Below, in pieces: positions 2,240 to 16,229 of a stretch of 36,089 nt of DNA. Source of the stretch: a virus; the IMG/VR virus record IMGVR_UViG_3300035698_025068, positions 1 to 36,089 of that record, one strand, 5' to 3'. The notes beneath the pieces were generated by a model, which worked only from the letters and a program-made list of their open reading frames with translations, had not been told where the DNA came from and made no database searches. Position numbers and translations under genes: made by a program. Numbering within the stretch: position 1 is the first letter of the stretch; each line of letters opens with the position of its first letter.

Positions 2240-3907
2240 ATGTGTGGAATTGTTGCTGTTTGGTGTAGAGAAGGTGTTTTTAGTATTGAACATTTTGATA
2301 AACTTTTTCTTGAAGCAGAGAAAAGAGGTCAGAATGGGTTTGGTATTGTAATTCATACTAAAGGTTCTTCTTGGTTTATTCATGAATTAGAATCTTATAG
2401 TAATAAAAGAGATGAAGTATTAAAGAAGTTTCAATATTATATTGATGAAGGATTATTGAAAACAGGTTCTTTAATATTAGCAAATTTCAGAGCTCAACCA
2501 GAAACAGAAGTCCCAACCTCTTATAAAAATCTACAACCAATAATTCGAGATAATTGTATTCTTGTTCATAATGGAGTTGTAGCAAATTTTATTAAAGATG
2601 AATTAGCAGTTGCAGAAGAACCTTACTATACAGATATTGATAGTGAAGCTATTCTAACAGGCTACCAAAAATTCAATAAAAATTTAAAAGAAATGATGGA
2701 ATATATGGTGGGAGGATTTGCATTCCTATTATATGATATGAAACAAAATAGATTACATTGTGTATCTGATTTCAAACCTTTATCTATTGGCTATGTAAAA
2801 GGATATGGTTTGATACTTCATTCTTCAGAAGAAGCGATTGCAAGTGTAGTAAATAAAATTACAGATTGTAATAGATGTGGATTAAATGTATGGGAAGATT
2901 TTTACTATCACCCACAAGAAGGATATCAAATAAGAAGTATAGATTTAGATAGTGGTATAGAACGGTTAAATAGTTACCAGCCTCGTATTTACCACCCACA
3001 CTATAATAAGATACCTAAGAACAAAGAACCTCGTAAATTGGCCTTAATATCAGCCTCTGGTGGGATAGATAGTGGGTTAACCGCACAGGTTTTGACACAT
3101 TGTGGTTATGATGTAGAATTAATTCATTTTTCTTATGGTCAAAAGAGTGAAGATGCTGAAAGAGAATGCGTGCAGCAGTTGACACGGCATTTTGATTGTT
3201 GGGAAAAAATTATTGATGTTAGGGCTATTTTTGGGGAAGACCCAAGTCAATTAATTGATGAAGATGAAGAAATAACAACAGGAAGTTCTAAAAATATTAA
3301 GACAGTAAGTGCTTGGGTTGCTAATAGAAATGGTGTCTTTCTTTCAATATTAGCTTCTTTAGCAGAGCAAAGAATTTTAAGTAGAGTTTATGATGAAGTT
3401 TATATAGCTTCTGGTATGAGTAATCTAAGCGAGAGTGGTTTCTATCCAGATAATTCAGAAAGATTTATTGGAGCTTTTAGTGAGATGATAAAATATTCAA
3501 CTATTACTTGGCCAAAAATTAAATATATTTCTGTATTTCAAGATATTATGAAATATGAAGAATGGATATTAGGAAATGATTTAGCTTTTCCTTTTGAAAA
3601 AACTTGTTCATGTGATGATGCTAAGATGGAACCTCGTACTGCTTTTGAAAAAGCTGTTGGCAGTGAAGCCAATATAGAATTATGTAATCAATGTGGTTCA
3701 ACCTTATTAAGTAAATGGGCAGCACAAATGGCAGGAGTCACAGACCCTAGAAAATTTTATGATAAAGAAGTTAATATAGAAATTATGGCACCAAAAGTTA
3801 GATTGATAGAAAATAAACCAACATCATTAAACATTATTAGTAGATTAAGATTACCTGCAAAAGAAGATTATATGAAATTATTTAAAATAGTTAAAAATAG
3901 TTCTTGA
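2240..3907 (+). CDS. gat-queC: Glutamine amidotransferase-QueC fusion (Gat-QueC), predicted archaeosine synthase for DNA
   Basis: The protein has 555 aa. It begins MCGIVAVW, so after Met removal Cys2 is the class II glutamine amidotransferase nucleophile; this domain covers roughly residues 2-210. The second half is QueC-like: an ATP-pyrophosphatase loop SGGIDS near residue 273 and zinc-binding Cys at 456, 458, 482 and 485. In archaea and in enterobacterial phage 9g, Gat-QueC proteins use ammonia from glutamine to turn the nitrile of preQ0 into the amidine of archaeosine; in the phage this is in DNA. The gene has its own promoter and lies about 5.6 kb upstream of the rest of the pathway. The separate QueC at 14686 makes it unlikely that this one is the primary preQ0 synthase. 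That division of labour is inferred. Confidence 0.85.
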   Translation: MCGIVAVWCREGVFSIEHFDKLFLEAEKRGQNGFGIVIHTKGSSWFIHELESYSNKRDEVLKKFQYYIDEGLLKTGSLILANFRAQPETEVPTSYKNLQPIIRDNCILVHNGVVANFIKDELAVAEEPYYTDIDSEAILTGYQKFNKNLKEMMEYMVGGFAFLLYDMKQNRLHCVSDFKPLSIGYVKGYGLILHSSEEAIASVVNKITDCNRCGLNVWEDFYYHPQEGYQIRSIDLDSGIERLNSYQPRIYHPHYNKIPKNKEPRKLALISASGGIDSGLTAQVLTHCGYDVELIHFSYGQKSEDAERECVQQLTRHFDCWEKIIDVRAIFGEDPSQLIDEDEEITTGSSKNIKTVSAWVANRNGVFLSILASLAEQRILSRVYDEVYIASGMSNLSESGFYPDNSERFIGAFSEMIKYSTITWPKIKYISVFQDIMKYEEWILGNDLAFPFEKTCSCDDAKMEPRTAFEKAVGSEANIELCNQCGSTLLSKWAAQMAGVTDPRKFYDKEVNIEIMAPKVRLIENKPTSLNIISRLRLPAKEDYMKLFKIVKNSS

Positions 3908-8940: not shown

Positions 8941-9507
8941 ATGTATAACCAACCTAGATTTAGAAACACAATGGCATCGCAATGTTTATCTTTAGGATAT
9001 CCCTGGGAGGAAATTGAAGACTTACTCATCTATTCTATGTATCTATCGAAGAGAGGATTAAGCTTTCACTTTGCTTTGAATAAGAAAGAAATTATGAGTA
9101 CTTGTATGGGAACAGTATTTGAAATGTATAATGACTACACAGATTTTGAAAGAAAAGATAGATTGAATTTAATTAAATGGCACATGAAAAATAGAGTAGC
9201 TACTATGTTTGAATATCATGGTGCTCAATGTCGTAGATGTAATGATGTAGATTTGGAAGAATTGTCTCCCTATTTGGCAGATAGATGTGGAAATGATTCT
9301 AAAGATTTTATGGATTTGGTGATGAAGCAATCTTCAGCATTAACAAAAGCTGTGTTTAAAGTTGTTGTTGAAGAAGATGGGATTGACTTTTTTGACACTG
9401 GTAGAGTAAAGTGGAAATCAGTACTTGATAGATTAGGAATAAATCGCTATACTCTTAGTAAGGCATTAGATGAGATAGGCAGTTTACATAAAGATTATAT
9501 ATCTTAG
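8941..9507 (+). CDS. Possible sigma-like or helix-turn-helix protein, 188 aa
   Basis: A strong GGAGG precedes the ATG. The middle has a basic amphipathic stretch (LIKWHMKNRVATMFEYHG) that resembles sigma region 2. The C-terminal ~40 residues look like a helix-turn-helix (VLDRLGINRYTLSKALDEIG). Two Cys (CRRC) lie between them. A phage-encoded sigma factor would suit middle or late transcription, but the match is weak and another DNA-binding role is equally possible. Confidence 0.35.
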   Translation: MYNQPRFRNTMASQCLSLGYPWEEIEDLLIYSMYLSKRGLSFHFALNKKEIMSTCMGTVFEMYNDYTDFERKDRLNLIKWHMKNRVATMFEYHGAQCRRCNDVDLEELSPYLADRCGNDSKDFMDLVMKQSSALTKAVFKVVVEEDGIDFFDTGRVKWKSVLDRLGINRYTLSKALDEIGSLHKDYIS

Positions 9508-9516
9508 GAGGCTATT

Positions 9517-9849
9517 ATGTATATTTTAGAAAAAGAAGTTTGGATATCAGCAGCACATCATCTACCAGAGTATAGCGGAGATTGTAATCATGTGCACGGG
9601 CATAATTGGCGTATTATTGTCACATGTCAATGTAAAGATAATGAATTGGCTGGTGGTATGGTTATAGATTTTAAAGAAATAACTAGTATTTGTCATAGTC
9701 TAGACCATCAGAATTTGAATGATTTTTCAGGTTTAGATAATCCTACAGCGGAAAATATTGCAAAATATTTATGTGTTAGAATTCCAAGATGTACTAAGAT
9801 TGCTATATATGAATCAGAAGGAAGTAAGGCAGTATATATAAAGGAGTAG
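9517..9849 (+). CDS. queD: 6-carboxy-tetrahydropterin synthase QueD
   Basis: The protein has 110 aa, typical for QueD. It converts dihydroneopterin triphosphate to 6-carboxy-5,6,7,8-tetrahydropterin, the second step from GTP to preQ0. The zinc and catalytic residues are all present: His14/His15, catalytic Cys23, and the HGH pair His27 and His29 with the family spacing C-x3-H-x-H. AGGAGG precedes the ATG. It heads the modification operon, with the zinc protein at 9853 between it and queE. Confidence 0.9.
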   Translation: MYILEKEVWISAAHHLPEYSGDCNHVHGHNWRIIVTCQCKDNELAGGMVIDFKEITSICHSLDHQNLNDFSGLDNPTAENIAKYLCVRIPRCTKIAIYESEGSKAVYIKE

Positions 9850-9852
9850 TGT

Positions 9853-10455
9853 ATGCCAGATAAAGGGAATCCTCCATGCTATGGATTTTATAATGGTATG
9901 GTTAAAGAGTGTAGTAAGAAGAAATGTGGTTATACAGTATTGTGTAAGCATATCACAGAAAAATATAAAGGCAAGATTAAGATGCCTGAAGAATGTAAAG
10001 AAGGAGTAAAAGTGGAAGCTCCCAAAGAAGAAAAACCAGAAGTGAAAGATGAGCAACTTGATGAAAAAGAAAAGGTAGCAGAAATGTGCGAGTGTGCAAG
10101 CCCGCTACCTGATTCTGAGAATCTTTATAATTGTAATACTTGTGGTAAGCCATTAAAGGAAAAGTATATTCCTAAGACAGAGCCTATTGAAGCACCTAAA
10201 GTTGAGCCTCCAAGTTCTATAAAAGAAGGATATAAAGCTGTTTTAAAGAGAGCTCGAACAAAATCAGTAGCTGGTCAAATTACTATACAAGCATTAAGTG
10301 TAGATGAAACTACTGTTGATGTTGTTGCTTCTAAAGTAGCAAAGGAATTAGGAAAACCAGTAACAGCAGGACAAGTAACTAGTCATCTTAAATGGATAGC
10401 TAAAAAATATAGCTGTTTAATTTTAAGTAAAGATGGTGGGGTGATTAGACAATGA
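9853..10455 (+). CDS. Zinc-binding protein with CYG-Cys motif, 200 aa
   Basis: The N-terminus has CYGFYNGMVKECSKKKCGY followed by a fourth Cys, a four-Cys cluster. A similar cluster ends the single-strand binding protein at 20402 (CYGKEYSTDDDECLECPY). A Pro/Glu/Lys-rich linker and a second ribbon (CECAS, CNTCG) follow. The last ~75 residues look like a winged helix (VTAGQVTSHLKWIAKKYS). The stop overlaps the queE ATG. It may bind DNA or another protein in the modification process; its reaction, if any, is unknown. Confidence 0.6.
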   Translation: MPDKGNPPCYGFYNGMVKECSKKKCGYTVLCKHITEKYKGKIKMPEECKEGVKVEAPKEEKPEVKDEQLDEKEKVAEMCECASPLPDSENLYNCNTCGKPLKEKYIPKTEPIEAPKVEPPSSIKEGYKAVLKRARTKSVAGQITIQALSVDETTVDVVASKVAKELGKPVTAGQVTSHLKWIAKKYSCLILSKDGGVIRQ

Positions 10456-11060
10456 CCTTACTAGTTAATGAAGTATTTTATTCTATACAATGTGAAGGTT
10501 CTAATGTAGGAATGCCTGCAGTATTTGTCAGATTATCTGGGTGTAATATGAATTGTGATTTTTGTGATACAGACCATAGTGTTAAATCAAAGCATTCTCC
10601 AGAAGATTTAGCTCATAGAGTTTTTATGGAATTTCATAATTTAGGTATAAAACCAGTAAATTCTCTTTGTATTATTACTGGTGGAGAGCCAACAATACAA
10701 GATTTAAGTAAATTTTTACCTTTGCTTAAAGAGAAATTGCATATGATTGTATGTATGGAATCTAATGGTATTTTGTCACCTGAATGGATTCAGGATGTTG
10801 ATTTTATTACTGTTAGTCCTAAGACGCCAATAACAGATATAAAGTTAATTGACCCAGATGAAGTAAAAGTTATTTGGGAGAAAGGAGGTACACCACCAGA
10901 AAATTATTATTCTTTTTTCAATAACCATGGTTGTTCCAGATTTTATATACAACCAGAGGGAAATAAAAAAGAAAATATTGATTCAGCAATTGATTATATT
11001 AAGGTGAATCCACATTGGAGTTTAAGTTTACAAATACAAAAAATGATAGGAGTTAGATAA
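10452..11060 (+). CDS. queE: 7-carboxy-7-deazaguanine synthase QueE (radical SAM)
   Basis: The protein has 202 aa. The radical-SAM cluster motif is CNMNCDFC (Cys31, 35, 38), a regular C-x3-C-x2-C. The N-terminal NEVFYSIQCEG and the TGGEPT motif are typical of QueE. The enzyme rearranges carboxy-tetrahydropterin to 7-carboxy-7-deazaguanine. It overlaps the preceding gene by four bases and the folE fusion as TAATG, so the operon is tightly coupled. Confidence 0.9.
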   Translation: MTLLVNEVFYSIQCEGSNVGMPAVFVRLSGCNMNCDFCDTDHSVKSKHSPEDLAHRVFMEFHNLGIKPVNSLCIITGGEPTIQDLSKFLPLLKEKLHMIVCMESNGILSPEWIQDVDFITVSPKTPITDIKLIDPDEVKVIWEKGGTPPENYYSFFNNHGCSRFYIQPEGNKKENIDSAIDYIKVNPHWSLSLQIQKMIGVR

Positions 11061-11971
11061 TGGGAAAGCTACACATCAGTTGGAAGCAAATAAGCAATAT
11101 GGTTGCTAAGTTAGATAGTGATTTAAGAATCACTTATAAAAAGACACCTATAAAAGTATATGGTGTGCCTAAAAATGGTTGGATGGTAGTAAAAGAATTA
11201 ATGAATATAACGAATGATTATATTGAATCATCTTATGAAGATTGTGATATAGTTGTAGATGATATTATAGATTCTGGCAGGACAGCTGGTAAACATAAAG
11301 CTGCACCTTTTTATGCTTTACTTTCTAAGAAGCAAACATTGAGTGGTATGGTTTGTAAATTTGTAGAGCTTATAGATAAAGGTGATTGGGTTGTGTTTCC
11401 TTGGGAAGGTACTGAGCAAACATCTATAGAAGATAATATTGTACGACTATTACAATATATAGGAGAAGACCCAAATAGAGAAGGTTTAGTAGATACTCCT
11501 GCTAGAGTAGAAAGGTCTTTTAAAGAGTTATATGGAGGTTATTCTCAGAATCCAGATGCAATATTGAAAGCAGTATTTACTGAAGAAAGATATCAAGAAT
11601 TGGTCGTTGTCAAAGACATTGAGTTTTATTCAATGTGCGAACATCATATGTTACCTTTTTATGGAAAAGTCCATATCGGATATCTTCCAGAAGGTAAAGT
11701 TGTTGGTTTAAGTAAACTGTGTAGATTGACAGATATTTTTGCTAGACGTTTACAGATACAAGAAAAGTTAGCTTGTGATATTGTTGATACTATTGAAAGA
11801 GTATTAAAACCAAAAGGTTGTGGTTGTATAATTCAAGCAAAGCATCATTGTATGATGAGTAGAGGAGTTGGAAAACAGAATAGTAATGTGATTACTACTT
11901 CTTTAAGAGGTGAAATGTTGAAAGAACCTTTAAAATCAGAGTTTATAAGGAATTGTTTGAGTGAAAAGTAA
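11060..11971 (+). CDS. folE: Phosphoribosyltransferase-like domain fused to GTP cyclohydrolase I (FolE)
   Basis: The protein has 303 aa. Residues ~25-110 carry a PRPP-binding loop IVVDDIIDSGRT (64-75), the signature of type I phosphoribosyltransferases. Residues ~125-295 are GTP cyclohydrolase I, with zinc ligands in CEHH near residue 193 and in HHCMMSRG near 264. FolE converts GTP to dihydroneopterin triphosphate, the first step toward preQ0. The phosphoribosyltransferase part is short, so it may be a small or degenerate domain. It could act in salvage of a base or nucleotide or only in regulation. The fusion is unusual and its purpose is not known to me. Confidence 0.85.
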   Translation: MGKLHISWKQISNMVAKLDSDLRITYKKTPIKVYGVPKNGWMVVKELMNITNDYIESSYEDCDIVVDDIIDSGRTAGKHKAAPFYALLSKKQTLSGMVCKFVELIDKGDWVVFPWEGTEQTSIEDNIVRLLQYIGEDPNREGLVDTPARVERSFKELYGGYSQNPDAILKAVFTEERYQELVVVKDIEFYSMCEHHMLPFYGKVHIGYLPEGKVVGLSKLCRLTDIFARRLQIQEKLACDIVDTIERVLKPKGCGCIIQAKHHCMMSRGVGKQNSNVITTSLRGEMLKEPLKSEFIRNCLSEK

Positions 11972-12290
11972 AAAATTAACTTTTGTTATTGATATTGATG
12001 GCACATTAACATATGAAACTGATAGACCTTGGTGGCCAGAGAAATATGTGTCTGCAACTCCTAAAGTAAATGCAATTGATATGGTTAGAAAATTGCATAG
12101 TTTAGGACATATAATTATATTACACACTGGTAGGAGAAAAGAAGATAGAAAGGTTACAGAACATTGGTTAGCTATTTTTGGTGTATCTTATGATAAGTTA
12201 ATTATGGGAAAACCAGTTGGCGACTATTACTTGGATAATAAAAATGCAAGTTTTTCTGAATTACACAAGATTATTTCTAAGGAGGGATAA
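11961..12290 (+). CDS. Small HAD-family phosphatase, 109 aa
   Basis: The GTG start at 11961 overlaps the folE stop by 11 bases. Motif I is DIDGT (Asp11 and Asp13), motif II is HTGR, and motif III is GKPVGDYYLDNK with its Lys and Asp. There is no large cap domain. Small HADs of this kind dephosphorylate sugars or nucleotides or act as polynucleotide phosphatases. Lying directly behind folE in a modification operon, it may act on a phosphorylated pathway intermediate; the substrate is not evident. Confidence 0.75.
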   Translation: MKSKKLTFVIDIDGTLTYETDRPWWPEKYVSATPKVNAIDMVRKLHSLGHIIILHTGRRKEDRKVTEHWLAIFGVSYDKLIMGKPVGDYYLDNKNASFSELHKIISKEG

Positions 12291-12291
12291 G

Positions 12292-12930
12292 ATGAGCTAC
12301 GCTGTCGTAACAGGTGGAACATCAGGAATAGGAAAAGCTATTTCTGATGAATTAGAAGAAAGAGAATATGAAGTATTGAGGTTGAATAGTAAAGTTTTTG
12401 ATTTAAATGACCTTGATGAAGCTATAGTTTTTGCAGATAATGTGACACTACCTGATGTTCTTGTTTTAAATGCTGGTATATTACCTTTAGACCATTTAGA
12501 GGATTCAACTGATGACCAGGATTTGAGAGTGATGAATGTTAATTTTATCTCACATTATTATATAGCAAAGAAGCTTGTGCTAAGGGCTTTAAAGGAGCAT
12601 AGAAAATTGCTTATTATAGGAATTAGCAGTATCTCTTCTAGGTCGGAAACAGACAACCCAATGTATGGTGCAGCAAAAGCAGCCCTTAGTTGTCTTATGA
12701 GGTCTTTGGCTTGTATTCAGCCAATGTTTATTAGAACTGCAATTATATCTCCTGGCTTTGTTAATACGAATTTATGTCCAGGTGAATGTCCTCCAGAATT
12801 AATAGCTTCTGTACCTTTAGATAGAGAAGCAGAACCCGAAGAAATAAGACCCATTATCAGAGCTATATTAGATTGTGAATATATTAATGGTTCTGAGTTT
12901 GTGGTAGATGGAGGTAAATCATGCATGTAG
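12292..12930 (+). CDS. Short-chain dehydrogenase/reductase, 212 aa
   Basis: The start is ATG 12292, with GGAGGG seven bases before it. An upstream in-frame ATG lies inside the HAD gene and has no such site. The NAD(P) loop is TGGTSGIG (7-14). The catalytic Ser lies in ISSISS and the YxxxK pair is Tyr125/Lys129 (YGAAK). A classical SDR of normal but short length, it should oxidise or reduce an alcohol, ketone or imine with NAD(P)H. Its ten-base overlap with the radical SAM gene points to a shared pathway. SDRs are not part of the known preQ0 route. Confidence 0.8.
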   Translation: MSYAVVTGGTSGIGKAISDELEEREYEVLRLNSKVFDLNDLDEAIVFADNVTLPDVLVLNAGILPLDHLEDSTDDQDLRVMNVNFISHYYIAKKLVLRALKEHRKLLIIGISSISSRSETDNPMYGAAKAALSCLMRSLACIQPMFIRTAIISPGFVNTNLCPGECPPELIASVPLDREAEPEEIRPIIRAILDCEYINGSEFVVDGGKSCM

Positions 12931-13910
12931 GTGATTACTTTAGGTGTTCTTGTTTATATTTTACAAGAAAGTGTTTTAGAAAATGTGAGTACTGTAGAAT
13001 TCGTGATAATTCTTCTGGTAATAAAGAATTAGATGTGAAGGAATGGAAAGAAGTAGTAAAGATTTTAAATTATTTGGGAGTAGAATTTAATTTAATTTTA
13101 GGAAATGAACCTTTAGCAAGACCGGAAGAGTTTATTGAATTGATTCCTGAGTTTAATAAATTAGAATCTTACGCAGTTTATTCTTCAGCAGGTCCAGAAC
13201 TTTTTGATAAGTATAAGTATAAGATGATAGATGCAGGACTTAAAAATTTTTCAACAGGGATGGATTTTTTAGATGCAGAGCAAGGTGATATTGGTAAGAA
13301 ATCTGTAGATGGTCTTAGAAATACTTTATGGATGAAAGAACACGGTGTGCCTTTAACTTTTTGTGTAACTACTATTTCTAAATTGAATCTTCCTTATTTA
13401 GAAGATATTATGCATGCAGTTTGCTCAAAAGGTTTAGTTTGGGCTTTAAATGTTGTGCATTATGATATGGATGGTGGGTTTGATTTCTTTCCACCAAAAG
13501 AAGAGATTCCAGATTTTGTATTGACAAAAGAAGATGTTCCTTTATTGAAGAAACAGATTGCAGTAATGAAAAAAGGTATTGAGAATGGGTATCGCATTCA
13601 GAATACACCATTATATTTTGATTATTTGGAGAATAAAGGGTGGGATTTAAGATGGCATTGTAAAGAGCCTCTTTTATCAATGGATGCAGATGGTAAGATG
13701 AGACTATGTGGTTATAGAAAAGGTGAAGAAGTAAATAAATTTTCTATCTTTGATTTAACTAATGAGAAAAAGCTAAGAGAATTTATTGATGCTTGGTATG
13801 TTGACAATCATGTTTGTTGTGGTTGTTATTGGATGTATAGTTTTGTTGCAGAAGAAGCATATATGAAAGGCACATTAGCAGAAAGAGTACAAAGGATTGA
13901 ACCTCATTAA
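12921..13910 (+). CDS. Radical SAM enzyme with SPASM-like C-terminus, 329 aa
   Basis: The cluster motif is CFRKCEYC (Cys18, 22, 25). A 'GNEPLARPEE' segment near residue 60 matches the GGEP region of radical SAM barrels. The C-terminal third has a Cys followed by DADGKMRLCGY, then CCGCYW, the pattern of a SPASM/twitch auxiliary cluster. Such enzymes usually modify peptides or perform difficult oxidations or C-C bond chemistry. It is distinct from QueE, which is encoded separately. Its place between SDR and methyltransferase suggests a tailoring step on the deazaguanine; the reaction is unknown. Confidence 0.75.
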   Translation: MHVGDYFRCSCLYFTRKCFRKCEYCRIRDNSSGNKELDVKEWKEVVKILNYLGVEFNLILGNEPLARPEEFIELIPEFNKLESYAVYSSAGPELFDKYKYKMIDAGLKNFSTGMDFLDAEQGDIGKKSVDGLRNTLWMKEHGVPLTFCVTTISKLNLPYLEDIMHAVCSKGLVWALNVVHYDMDGGFDFFPPKEEIPDFVLTKEDVPLLKKQIAVMKKGIENGYRIQNTPLYFDYLENKGWDLRWHCKEPLLSMDADGKMRLCGYRKGEEVNKFSIFDLTNEKKLREFIDAWYVDNHVCCGCYWMYSFVAEEAYMKGTLAERVQRIEPH

Positions 13911-13921
13911 AGGAGCAGGTT

Positions 13922-14689
13922 GTGAAGTATGAAGTTAAGGACGATGGCTTGTATATGGTATTAGAGTCTGGTGATAAAGTTAAATGCTGTGATTTTAAGC
14001 TTGTAGCATCAATAGCAGAAGCATATCTTAAAGATGAATATCATGATTTTGTTAGTAGGGCAGAAGAGGGTGGAGAGGGAGTTCTTTTTGATAGCGAAGA
14101 GATGGATGACTTTTTTCATAGAAATTTACCTAATGATGCAAAAGCAGTATTAGATATTGGGTGTGGAAGTGGTCGAGGAGTAAAGCAAGTTACTGATGCT
14201 ATAGAGCCTAGTCTACTTAGATATAACAAAGCAAAGGAAACTGAATCACATATAGATATTAAATGTGTTTTTGCAGAAGCCCTACCATATCGAAATAAGA
14301 CATTTGATTGTGTATTCTCGATGAGGACTTGGCATTATCTCAGGTCTCAACTAGAAGGTTTTATTGAAGTCAACCGTGTTTTGAAACCAGGAGGCATTTT
14401 TATCTTTGATGTTGTTTATGGTAAGAACTTTCCTTTTGGTGGAATTACAATGGATGCACCTTCTCTGCTGGGTATTTTAAAAGAGCTAGGCTTTGATATT
14501 ATAGAGTTTAGAAATCTACCTATACGACAGGATTTCGGGTATGAATGGGGTTATTATGGTATAGCTCTAATAAAGAAGACGGATACTGATATACAATGTA
14601 TGAGGAAACTACATTTAGTTAAAGATGAAAGAACCAATATGTATAAAGCTAACAATTTTATAATATCAAGGGATGCTAAATTCTTATGA
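13922..14689 (+). CDS. Class I SAM-dependent methyltransferase, 255 aa
   Basis: The start is GTG 13922, six bases after AAGGAG. Motif I is LDIGCGSGRG near residue 77, a post-II acidic segment follows, and VLKPGGIFIFD is motif III. The fold is the Methyltransf_11/UbiE type that normally methylates small molecules. No DPPY or NPPY of DNA adenine or N4-cytosine methylases and no PC loop of C5-cytosine methylases is present. It overlaps queC as ATGA. It could methylate a deazaguanine side chain; methylated deazaguanines are known in phage DNA. Confidence 0.75.
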   Translation: MKYEVKDDGLYMVLESGDKVKCCDFKLVASIAEAYLKDEYHDFVSRAEEGGEGVLFDSEEMDDFFHRNLPNDAKAVLDIGCGSGRGVKQVTDAIEPSLLRYNKAKETESHIDIKCVFAEALPYRNKTFDCVFSMRTWHYLRSQLEGFIEVNRVLKPGGIFIFDVVYGKNFPFGGITMDAPSLLGILKELGFDIIEFRNLPIRQDFGYEWGYYGIALIKKTDTDIQCMRKLHLVKDERTNMYKANNFIISRDAKFL

Positions 14690-15351
14690 AAACCAAGACA
14701 GTATTGCTATATAGTGGTGGATTAGATAGTTATATTACAGGTTTCTTATTCAGGAATGATATTGATGTTGTTTTATATGTAGATTTGAATACTACATATT
14801 CTGAGAAGGAAAGAAAAGTTGTAACTGACCTTCCTATATTATTTCATGAAACAGAAATTTATAGTACAGTTAATATGAAAGATTTGGAAGATACGAAATC
14901 TTTCTTTGTTCCTTGTAGAAATTTGATATTATCTATATTTGCTTCTCATTATGGAAATAAAATATTACTTGGTGGTTTAAAAGAAGATAGGGTAGTTGAT
15001 AATCATAAAGGAGCATTTAAGGATTTTTCAGAAATAGTTTCTATTTATGGTGAAAAACCTGTGACAGTAATAAGTCCTATTCGTAATTTTACTAAGACTG
15101 AATTGGTAAAAGAATATTTTGATAGAGGTGGTCAGTTGTCAGAATTATGGAGGACTACTTCTTGTTATGATAAAAAAGAATTATATTGTGGTAGATGTAA
15201 TAGTTGTTTTAGAAAATTTGTTGCTTTTAAAAATAATAAAATTAAGATAGAATTTTATAATGATAAGTTGTTAGATGCTTATAAAACAAAAGCAAAGAAT
15301 AAAGAATTTATTCCACAAAGGAATAAAGAAATATTGAGAGCTCTAAAATGA
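14686..15351 (+). CDS. queC: 7-cyano-7-deazaguanine synthase QueC
   Basis: The protein has 221 aa, typical length. The ATP-pyrophosphatase motif is SGGLDS (10-15). The C-terminal zinc Cys lie in TTSCYDKKELYCGRCNSC. QueC converts carboxy-deazaguanine to preQ0 using ATP and ammonia. It overlaps both the methyltransferase and dpdA genes by four bases. This stand-alone copy is the likely preQ0 synthase, leaving the Gat-QueC fusion for amidation. Confidence 0.9.
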   Translation: MKTKTVLLYSGGLDSYITGFLFRNDIDVVLYVDLNTTYSEKERKVVTDLPILFHETEIYSTVNMKDLEDTKSFFVPCRNLILSIFASHYGNKILLGGLKEDRVVDNHKGAFKDFSEIVSIYGEKPVTVISPIRNFTKTELVKEYFDRGGQLSELWRTTSCYDKKELYCGRCNSCFRKFVAFKNNKIKIEFYNDKLLDAYKTKAKNKEFIPQRNKEILRALK

Positions 15352-16229
15352 TATTTTATGTTTCAGGTGTAAGTAATCTTAAGCATTATAATTATATATT
15401 GGAGAAGTATCCAAATGTATATTTATTATTTTCTTTTGCTCACCATAAAGTTAGTAAGAAGATATTTGAATTATTAAAACCTTGGTTGAATACTGATAGA
15501 GTATTTATAGATTCAGGTGCATATTCTATTTCAAAAGGTACTTTTGATGCTACAGTTCAAGATTATTGTAATTTTATTAAGCAGTATGATATTAAGATTT
15601 ATGCACATTTAGATGATATAGTTTATGCAGAGAATAATTTGGTGAACTTAAAAATTATGGAAGATGCAGGATTGACACCAGTTCCAGTTTATCATTGGGG
15701 TCACCCTAGAGAACAGTTAGATTATATATTAGAAAGATATGATTATTTATGCTATGGTGGTATTGCAGGTTCAATAGGAGCTAAGCATTTCTTACCTAGT
15801 ACAGATGAGTTGTATTCAAGATATATTGCACCAGAGGGTGGTAAGGTTAAATATAAAGTACATGGATTTGGAGTTGCTTGGGATACAGCAATAACAAGAT
15901 ATCCGTGGTATAGTATTGATAATACTAAATGGTTAAAAGTTTCTGCCTTTGGTGGAGTATTAATTTGTCAAGGAACCAAAACAAAAAGTGTTCCTGTAGC
16001 ACATAATTCTCCTTCTAGAAGAACTAAAAAACATTTATTAAATTTATCAAAGAAAGAACAAGAAAAAATTAGACAAACTATTGTGGAAGCTGATTTTGAT
16101 TATGAGCAAGTAATTCATGACCAAGTGTTTAGAGCGCTATTTAATTTAGACCAATATATGAAGTCAATAGATAATATGGGAGAGTTTGATTATGAAGCTG
16201 TTCAATGGAGCCAAGGATTATTTTATTAA
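15348..16229 (+). CDS. dpdA: DpdA-type DNA guanine transglycosylase
   Basis: The protein has 293 aa. DpdA proteins are tRNA-guanine-transglycosylase relatives that exchange guanine in DNA for a 7-deazaguanine. Features seen here: VFIDSGAYS with the candidate catalytic Asp55, YAHLDD at about residue 84, a YGGIAGS glycine strand, and a conserved C-terminal FGGVLICQG. It is much shorter than bacterial island DpdA and about the size of the short phage forms. Its gene closes the pathway operon immediately after queC. Which base it prefers, preQ0 or a tailored form, cannot be read from sequence. Confidence 0.85.
   Translation: MIFYVSGVSNLKHYNYILEKYPNVYLLFSFAHHKVSKKIFELLKPWLNTDRVFIDSGAYSISKGTFDATVQDYCNFIKQYDIKIYAHLDDIVYAENNLVNLKIMEDAGLTPVPVYHWGHPREQLDYILERYDYLCYGGIAGSIGAKHFLPSTDELYSRYIAPEGGKVKYKVHGFGVAWDTAITRYPWYSIDNTKWLKVSAFGGVLICQGTKTKSVPVAHNSPSRRTKKHLLNLSKKEQEKIRQTIVEADFDYEQVIHDQVFRALFNLDQYMKSIDNMGEFDYEAVQWSQGLFY

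Follow-up and report, generated by a model that had tools for sequence, protein, structure and literature searches.

Among the described phage 7-deazaguanine DNA modification systems, one of the closest to the one considered here is that of Enterobacteria phage 9g, which encodes FolE, QueD, QueE, a glutamine amidotransferase fused to a QueC domain (Gat-QueC) and the DNA guanine transglycosylase DpdA, the last followed by a sliding clamp and a DNA polymerase (PMC6884629). In E. coli without QueC, such a Gat-QueC and DpdA are enough to yield dG+ (PMC6884629). In the literature that we surveyed, the side chains of deazaguanine DNA bases are small (cyano, amido, aminomethyl or formamidino). In 2023, Cui et al. 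reportedly described four further phage deazaguanine derivatives and the proteins DpdL, DpdM and DpdN, a tailoring beyond preQ0 and G+ that includes methylation. To our knowledge, that work involves no second radical S-adenosylmethionine (SAM) enzyme, HAD protein or divergent QueC, and our literature search, which did not cover it, found nothing tying any of these three to phage deazaguanines. Here, we focus on a cassette that encodes a HAD phosphatase, a short-chain dehydrogenase/reductase (SDR), a radical SAM enzyme (rSAM) and a class-I SAM-dependent methyltransferase (MT). It lies in a 36,089-base window that is the entire IMG/VR record IMGVR_UViG_3300035698_025068, itself a fragment.

The window resembles phage 9g in its FolE, QueD, QueE, Gat-QueC and DpdA, and in the clamp and polymerase genes that follow DpdA. 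It differs in a second QueC, the HAD, the SDR, the extra radical SAM enzyme and the class-I MT, all absent from the 9g cluster; the whole 9g record gave one Radical_SAM match. The window DpdA matched 9g-type and other phage DpdA proteins in tblastn (E down to 1e-31) and is accompanied by FolE, QueD, QueE and a QueC-family enzyme, the sequence criteria for a DpdA-type system. By these criteria, the window encodes a deazaguanine DNA modification system of the DpdA type, with a new, predicted tailoring module. We propose that the HAD, SDR, rSAM and MT, together with a divergent QueC (QueC*), are this module, and that its product is a hypermodified base (probability roughly 0.65). That the cassette belongs to the DNA modification system at all is highly probable because of their co-occurrence.

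Layout of the operon and its enzymes

The open reading frames (ORFs) that make up the system are as follows.

2240-3907, + strand: Gat-QueC, glutamine amidotransferase fused to a QueC domain (PF06508, 9e-32; GATase_7, 1e-12)
9517-9849, + strand: QueD (TIGR03367, 1.3e-23)
10452-11060, + strand: QueE, the known radical SAM step, apart from the cassette (TIGR04508, 2.7e-31)
11060-11971, + strand: XGPRT-like phosphoribosyltransferase fused to FolE, GTP cyclohydrolase I (PF01227, 8.9e-67)
11961-12290, + strand: HAD phosphatase, EcbF/BcbF- and PNKP-like, 109 amino acids (Pfam PF25109)
12292-12930, + strand: SDR, 212 amino acids (Pfam adh_short)
12921-13910, + strand: rSAM with a four-cysteine twitch domain, 329 amino acids (Pfam Radical_SAM)
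13922-14689, + strand: MT, 255 amino acids (Pfam Methyltransf_11)
14686-15351, + strand: QueC* (motif reading and TIGR00364 score)
15348-16229, + strand: DpdA (phrog_887, 2.5e-38)

A sequence-only reading of this DNA had placed four enzyme genes at 11961-14689 between folE and queC, and there they lie, tightly coupled on the + strand and with their catalytic motifs intact when read directly. The close junctions that it described are also found. The HAD starts with GTG and shares its first 11 bases with FolE, which stops at 11971, the SDR starts with ATG after AAGGAGGG 1 base downstream of the HAD, the rSAM start overlaps the SDR end by 10 bases, the MT starts with GTG after AAAGGAGC 11 bases downstream of rSAM, and 4-base overlaps join MT to QueC* and QueC* to DpdA. 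These ribosome-binding sites and overlapping ORFs suggest that queD (9517) to dpdA (16229) forms one transcriptional unit. QueE, as had been noted, supplies the known radical SAM step separately. Two gene names were correct only in part: the upstream gene does encode FolE, but its N-terminal part is an XGPRT-like phosphoribosyltransferase (NCBIfam xanthine phosphoribosyltransferase match, 6.8e-5), and the downstream 'queC' belongs to the QueC family but represents a divergent subfamily, Gat-QueC being a second family member in the window.

The rSAM matches Pfam Radical_SAM (1.5e-10) and carries the motifs CFRKCEYC and GNEP. It had been called a radical SAM/SPASM enzyme, of which the radical SAM part stands; in place of a full SPASM domain, the C-terminus forms a four-cysteine twitch domain (C247, C263, C299, C302). 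These cysteines are invariant, along with C18/C22/C25 (CX3CX2C) and W304, in 12 sequences from 11 dpdA phages, whose identities range from 16 to 56% across 11 distinct dpdA clusters. As judged from this alignment, the rSAM homologues are a coherent family that combines the radical SAM core with a twitch site of four cysteines. If all four cysteines are ligands, such an auxiliary site would have no open iron for a substrate, which would favour electron transfer as in twitch/SPASM dehydrogenases. The AlphaFold2 model (pTM 0.79) is nearest in fold to viperin, BlsE, SuiB, SkfB and MoaA (TM 0.5-0.65). The rSAM is like twitch/SPASM enzymes and their relatives (MoaA, viperin, BlsE, BtrN) in its CX3CX2C core and predicted fold; it differs from them in its four-cysteine auxiliary site, its dpdA context and its scores, which lie below the curated cut-off of every named radical SAM family among the NCBIfam models. 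Identification as MoaA is unsupported (best curated NCBIfam score 36.6 bits, cut-off 231), as is identification as QueE, no QueE model being among the matches. There was no RaSEA-named model among the matches either, the presence of such a model in the library being unchecked.

The HAD matches Pfam HAD_PNKP (PF25109, 3.6e-8, above cut-off) and the PDB profiles of 9iqw (8e-10) and 1xpj (3e-8), and has the motifs DIDGT, HTGR and GKPVGDYYLD. We do not prefer a plain polynucleotide 3'-phosphatase, as the PNKP match is modest, the nearest solved structures are of the EcbF/BcbF type and the HAD tracks QueC*. The SDR (adh_short, 8e-22; motifs TGGTSGIG, NAG and YGAAK) is 40% identical to an SDR that adjoins rSAM and MT in contig L096. 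The MT (Methyltransf_11, 2.6e-14; motif LDIGCGSG) is 31% identical to the L096 MT located after rSAM; its AlphaFold2 model was unusable (pLDDT 39.5).

Recurrence of the cassette beside dpdA

To compare dpdA loci, two DpdA-anchored IMG/VR scans of 80 loci each were combined with other fetched loci into 126 clusters at 90% DpdA identity, and relatives within them were found by ORF-level hidden Markov model scans. Viral contigs with DpdA proteins only 25-45% identical to that of the window have related sets adjoining dpdA. Full-length rSAM relatives occur in 11 of the 126 clusters (the window, L002, L032, L076, L096, L145, L146, L151, L153, L156 and L160, with two copies in L076), where they usually adjoin QueC, and HAD and rSAM are found together in eight further distinct contigs besides the window. 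In the sister phage L002 (QueC 65%, DpdA 45% and PolA 58% identical), the operon is the same except that SDR and MT are missing; between FolE and QueC lie HAD (54%) and a divergent rSAM (27-28%). L096, whose PolA is 29% identical to that of the window, shares SDR-rSAM-MT in the window order (phmmer 1e-27, 4e-51 and 6e-18). Beyond L002, the gene orders are as follows.

L096: SDR-rSAM-MT-QueC-x-PIG-L-like-GT4-like-DpdA
L151: rSAM-QueC-PIG-L-like-GT4-like-PRT/FolE-DpdA
L145: FolE-rSAM-QueC-HAD-DpdA
L146: FolE-rSAM-x-QueC-MT-HAD-MT-DpdA
L153: FolE-rSAM-QueC-HAD-DpdA, with small ORFs interspersed
L160: FolE-rSAM-QueC-HAD-MT-DpdA
L032: PRT/FolE-x-rSAM-QueC-MT-HAD-DpdA-DpdA
L076: FolE-x-HAD-x-QueC-rSAM-rSAM-Gat-QueC-DpdA
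L156: rSAM-QueC-HAD-DpdA

Gene order varies among the phages, and the linkage is therefore maintained rather than frozen. This bears on the alternative in which the base is an ordinary one (dPreQ0 or dG+) and HAD, SDR, rSAM and MT entered the operon by drift, as unrelated auxiliary genes. The window does hold a complete preQ0/G+ gene set, enough for the known modifications (PMC6884629), and SDR and MT are absent from the sister phage. As the cassette recurs with dpdA and QueC* in distant phages in several gene orders, and as coding frames overlap in the window, we consider such drift improbable. The window rSAM is closer to the L096 rSAM (35%) than to that of L002 (27%), whereas DpdA, QueC and PolA show the opposite affinity. 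Because of this conflict, the SDR-rSAM-MT block looks like an exchangeable tailoring unit with its own history.

In dpdA-independent searches, no full-length rSAM homologue was found in 50,697 phage records, 72,556 plasmids and 84,980 genomes, and L002 was the sole full-length relative in viral contigs, itself beside que/dpdA; the sensitivity of these scans was limited, as the family evolves fast and the patterns were built on one or two sequences. The sequence-only reading had considered that relatives might occur mostly away from que and dpdA genes. This was not so: L002 was the only relative found independently of dpdA, and the dpdA-anchored scans bring the total to 10 further phages. A near-identity DNA search of INPHARED gave no match to the window, and tblastn of the four concatenated cassette proteins gave generic HAD/PNK, SDR and MT matches only, with no shared cluster. 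We rejected the HAD matches in L016 and L017, which lie in other contexts, and an rSAM match in L012 that by eye sits among heme-biosynthesis genes.

Several loci carry further variants. A PIG-L-like deacetylase and a GT4-like glycosyltransferase lie between QueC and DpdA in L096 (6374-7836) and L151 (5611-7076), exactly the two rSAM loci without HAD. The PIG-L-like Pfam match is weak and restricted to L096, and the GT4-like matches are weak; the pair hints at an amino-sugar-bearing deazaguanine. Another radical SAM family, of longer proteins (432-456 amino acids, CX3CX2C far from the N-terminus), occurs in L152, L159, L164, L168 and L171, adjoining a GT4-like glycosyltransferase and dpdA (e.g., L168 4796-7843; Pfam Radical_SAM 5e-14 in L168). 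Four of these loci also have a small ORF that is QueD-like by eye. In L032 (7096-9026), two dpdA genes stand in tandem in one operon.

The divergent QueC and its HAD partner

According to a 2026 study (PMC13329287), canonical QueC has a zinc site and four motifs, SGGxDS, YxQxHxxE, VPxRN and YPDC, and its synthesis of preQ0 depends on the tyrosines in YxQxHxxE and YPDC. The window QueC* keeps SGGxDS, VPxRN and the zinc cysteines and lacks YxQxHxxE and YPDC. The YPDC region is replaced by D101-x3-D105, of which both aspartates are invariant in an alignment of 13 sequences. QueC* scored 48.8 bits against the canonical QueC model TIGR00364 (cut-off 150.3) and 19.7 bits against the QatC model NF041925 of NCBIfam (cut-off 280). 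On these motifs and scores, QueC* is a divergent QueC subfamily, newly recognised here. Gat-QueC, whose QueC domain retains FYPDN, is comparable to that of phage 9g; because the window also has this 9g-like protein, QueC* is probably not needed for preQ0 or G+.

The HAD and QueC* are mostly adjacent, in either order. Of 17 clusters with QueC*, 15 carry HAD, whereas none of the 39 clusters that have other QueC types only contains it (p 8e-12; this and the following tests were not phylogenetically corrected); under another motif definition, the counts are 13/16 versus 2/41 (p 2e-8). HAD is likewise found in 9 of the 11 rSAM clusters against 7/115 others (Fisher p 3e-8). When DpdA was collapsed at 60% identity, the HAD-rSAM association gave p 4e-6 and the HAD-QueC* association p 2e-3. 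According to these patterns, the fullest predicted unit is one that takes in QueC* besides HAD, SDR, rSAM and MT, with SDR and MT optional. The suggestion that the four genes act in one joint pathway is borne out as far as their recurrence in dpdA clusters goes; an inseparable four-gene set it is not, as L002 lacks SDR and MT and QueC* belongs with the others.

Several observations weigh against a single tailoring module. The HAD-QueC* association weakens to p 0.07 at 50% DpdA collapse (14 clusters), SDR and MT join rSAM in just 2 of the 11 clusters (the window and L096), eight QueC* clusters are without rSAM, and both HAD and QueC* are missing from the rSAM loci L096 and L151. Some phages show QueC* alone, and there it may still make preQ0.

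The HAD could also belong to purine salvage. With the phosphoribosyltransferase, guanine released by DpdA would be converted to GMP while the HAD adjusts nucleotide pools, leaving the tailoring of the base, if any, to rSAM, SDR and MT. Phosphoribosyltransferase-like domains do occur in 51 of the 126 dpdA clusters, including the fusions to FolE in the window (11060-11971), L032 (2712-3704) and L151 (7069-7977), and L006 has a deaminase-like ORF; perhaps these domains do salvage the released guanine. For the HAD itself, we find this role very unlikely: it adjoins QueC* in most loci and tracks QueC* rather than the phosphoribosyltransferase, as L145 and L160 have HAD with a FolE of 192-201 amino acids and no such fusion.

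QatC and Cap9 offer another comparison. These QueC-family enzymes join the ATP-activated carboxylate of 7-carboxy-7-deazaguanine (CDG) to a protein N-terminus (PMC13329287). They share the QueC fold and altered substrate motifs with QueC*, and their CDG-amine ligation is a model for it; they differ in being defence systems that act on proteins, whereas QueC* is about 220 amino acids long, keeps VPxRN and sits with dpdA. The module might accordingly deazaguanylate a protein in the same way, or make a stand-alone small molecule, rather than a DNA base. QueC* and QatC lack the same two motifs, YxQxHxxE and YPDC (PMC13329287), and the QatC model weakly matched the L145 QueC* (1e-6). Nevertheless, QueC* falls far under the QatC cut-off (28 against 280 bits), QatC lacks the VPxRN of QueC*, dpdA follows a short way downstream in almost every locus, and reading the loci brought up no QatA, QatB, QatD or CD-NTase-like gene, although no systematic search was made. 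A target other than DNA therefore seems to us a distant prospect.

Proposed chemistry of the tailoring module

In the preferred reading, a hypermodified DNA base, FolE, QueD and QueE produce CDG, Gat-QueC is able to make preQ0/G+, as in phage 9g, and the module probably extends the C7 side chain. DpdA would swap DNA guanine for the finished base or a precursor, with tailoring before or after insertion. For the tailoring itself, we tentatively suggest a specific scheme, rather unlikely to hold as it stands. At the expense of ATP, QueC* would couple the CDG carboxylate to a small amine, possibly a phosphorylated one, rather than to ammonia; phosphorylation is proposed because HAD is the constant partner of QueC*. 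The HAD would strip the phosphate from the appended amine after ligation, the SDR and twitch rSAM would then alter the freed alcohol, whether by oxidising it, epimerising it or remodelling it in another way, and the MT would add a methyl cap. The resulting amide-linked, radical-SAM-tailored bases, placed in DNA by DpdA, would vary by phage. An amine supply of this type fits L006 (10720-12586), where HAD lies between QueC* and QueD, flanked on the QueC* side by an ORF resembling a class V aminotransferase (pyridoxamine-pyruvate transaminase model, 2.6e-14) and also by the deaminase-like ORF. The CmoX/CmoY hypermodification of phage cytosine similarly has an amine ligated, at the cost of ATP, to a carboxylate that serves as a handle on the DNA base; it differs in its base and its enzymes, radical SAM being absent from the main text of that paper (PMC12783734).

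The recurring rSAM/QueC*/HAD cassette, with glycosyltransferase- and deacetylase-like genes elsewhere, predicts larger deazaguanine hypermodifications in uncultured phages, and QueC* calls routine 'queC' annotation into question. If the prediction is true, radical SAM chemistry joins the means by which phages hide DNA from restriction. A new base, if real, would be an important addition; if QueC* is ordinary and the base dG+, only a variant gene neighbourhood remains.

Other genes near these cassettes also stand out. In a 175-kb phage contig, L005, a gene between dpdA and QueC* (9113-9979) encodes a glycosyltransferase with weak likeness to the TAGT (TET-associated) type. Between queE and folE, the window encodes a Lys/Glu-rich protein (9853-10455) that is also present in L032, L145, L146, L153 and L160; it has a conserved small C-terminal domain, by eye possibly a DNA-binding helix-turn-helix. 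Clamp-loader-like genes of about 690 amino acids occur in L145 (14331-16412) and L156 (7683-9758), with what by eye is an apparent intein or other large insertion after an ATPase motif.

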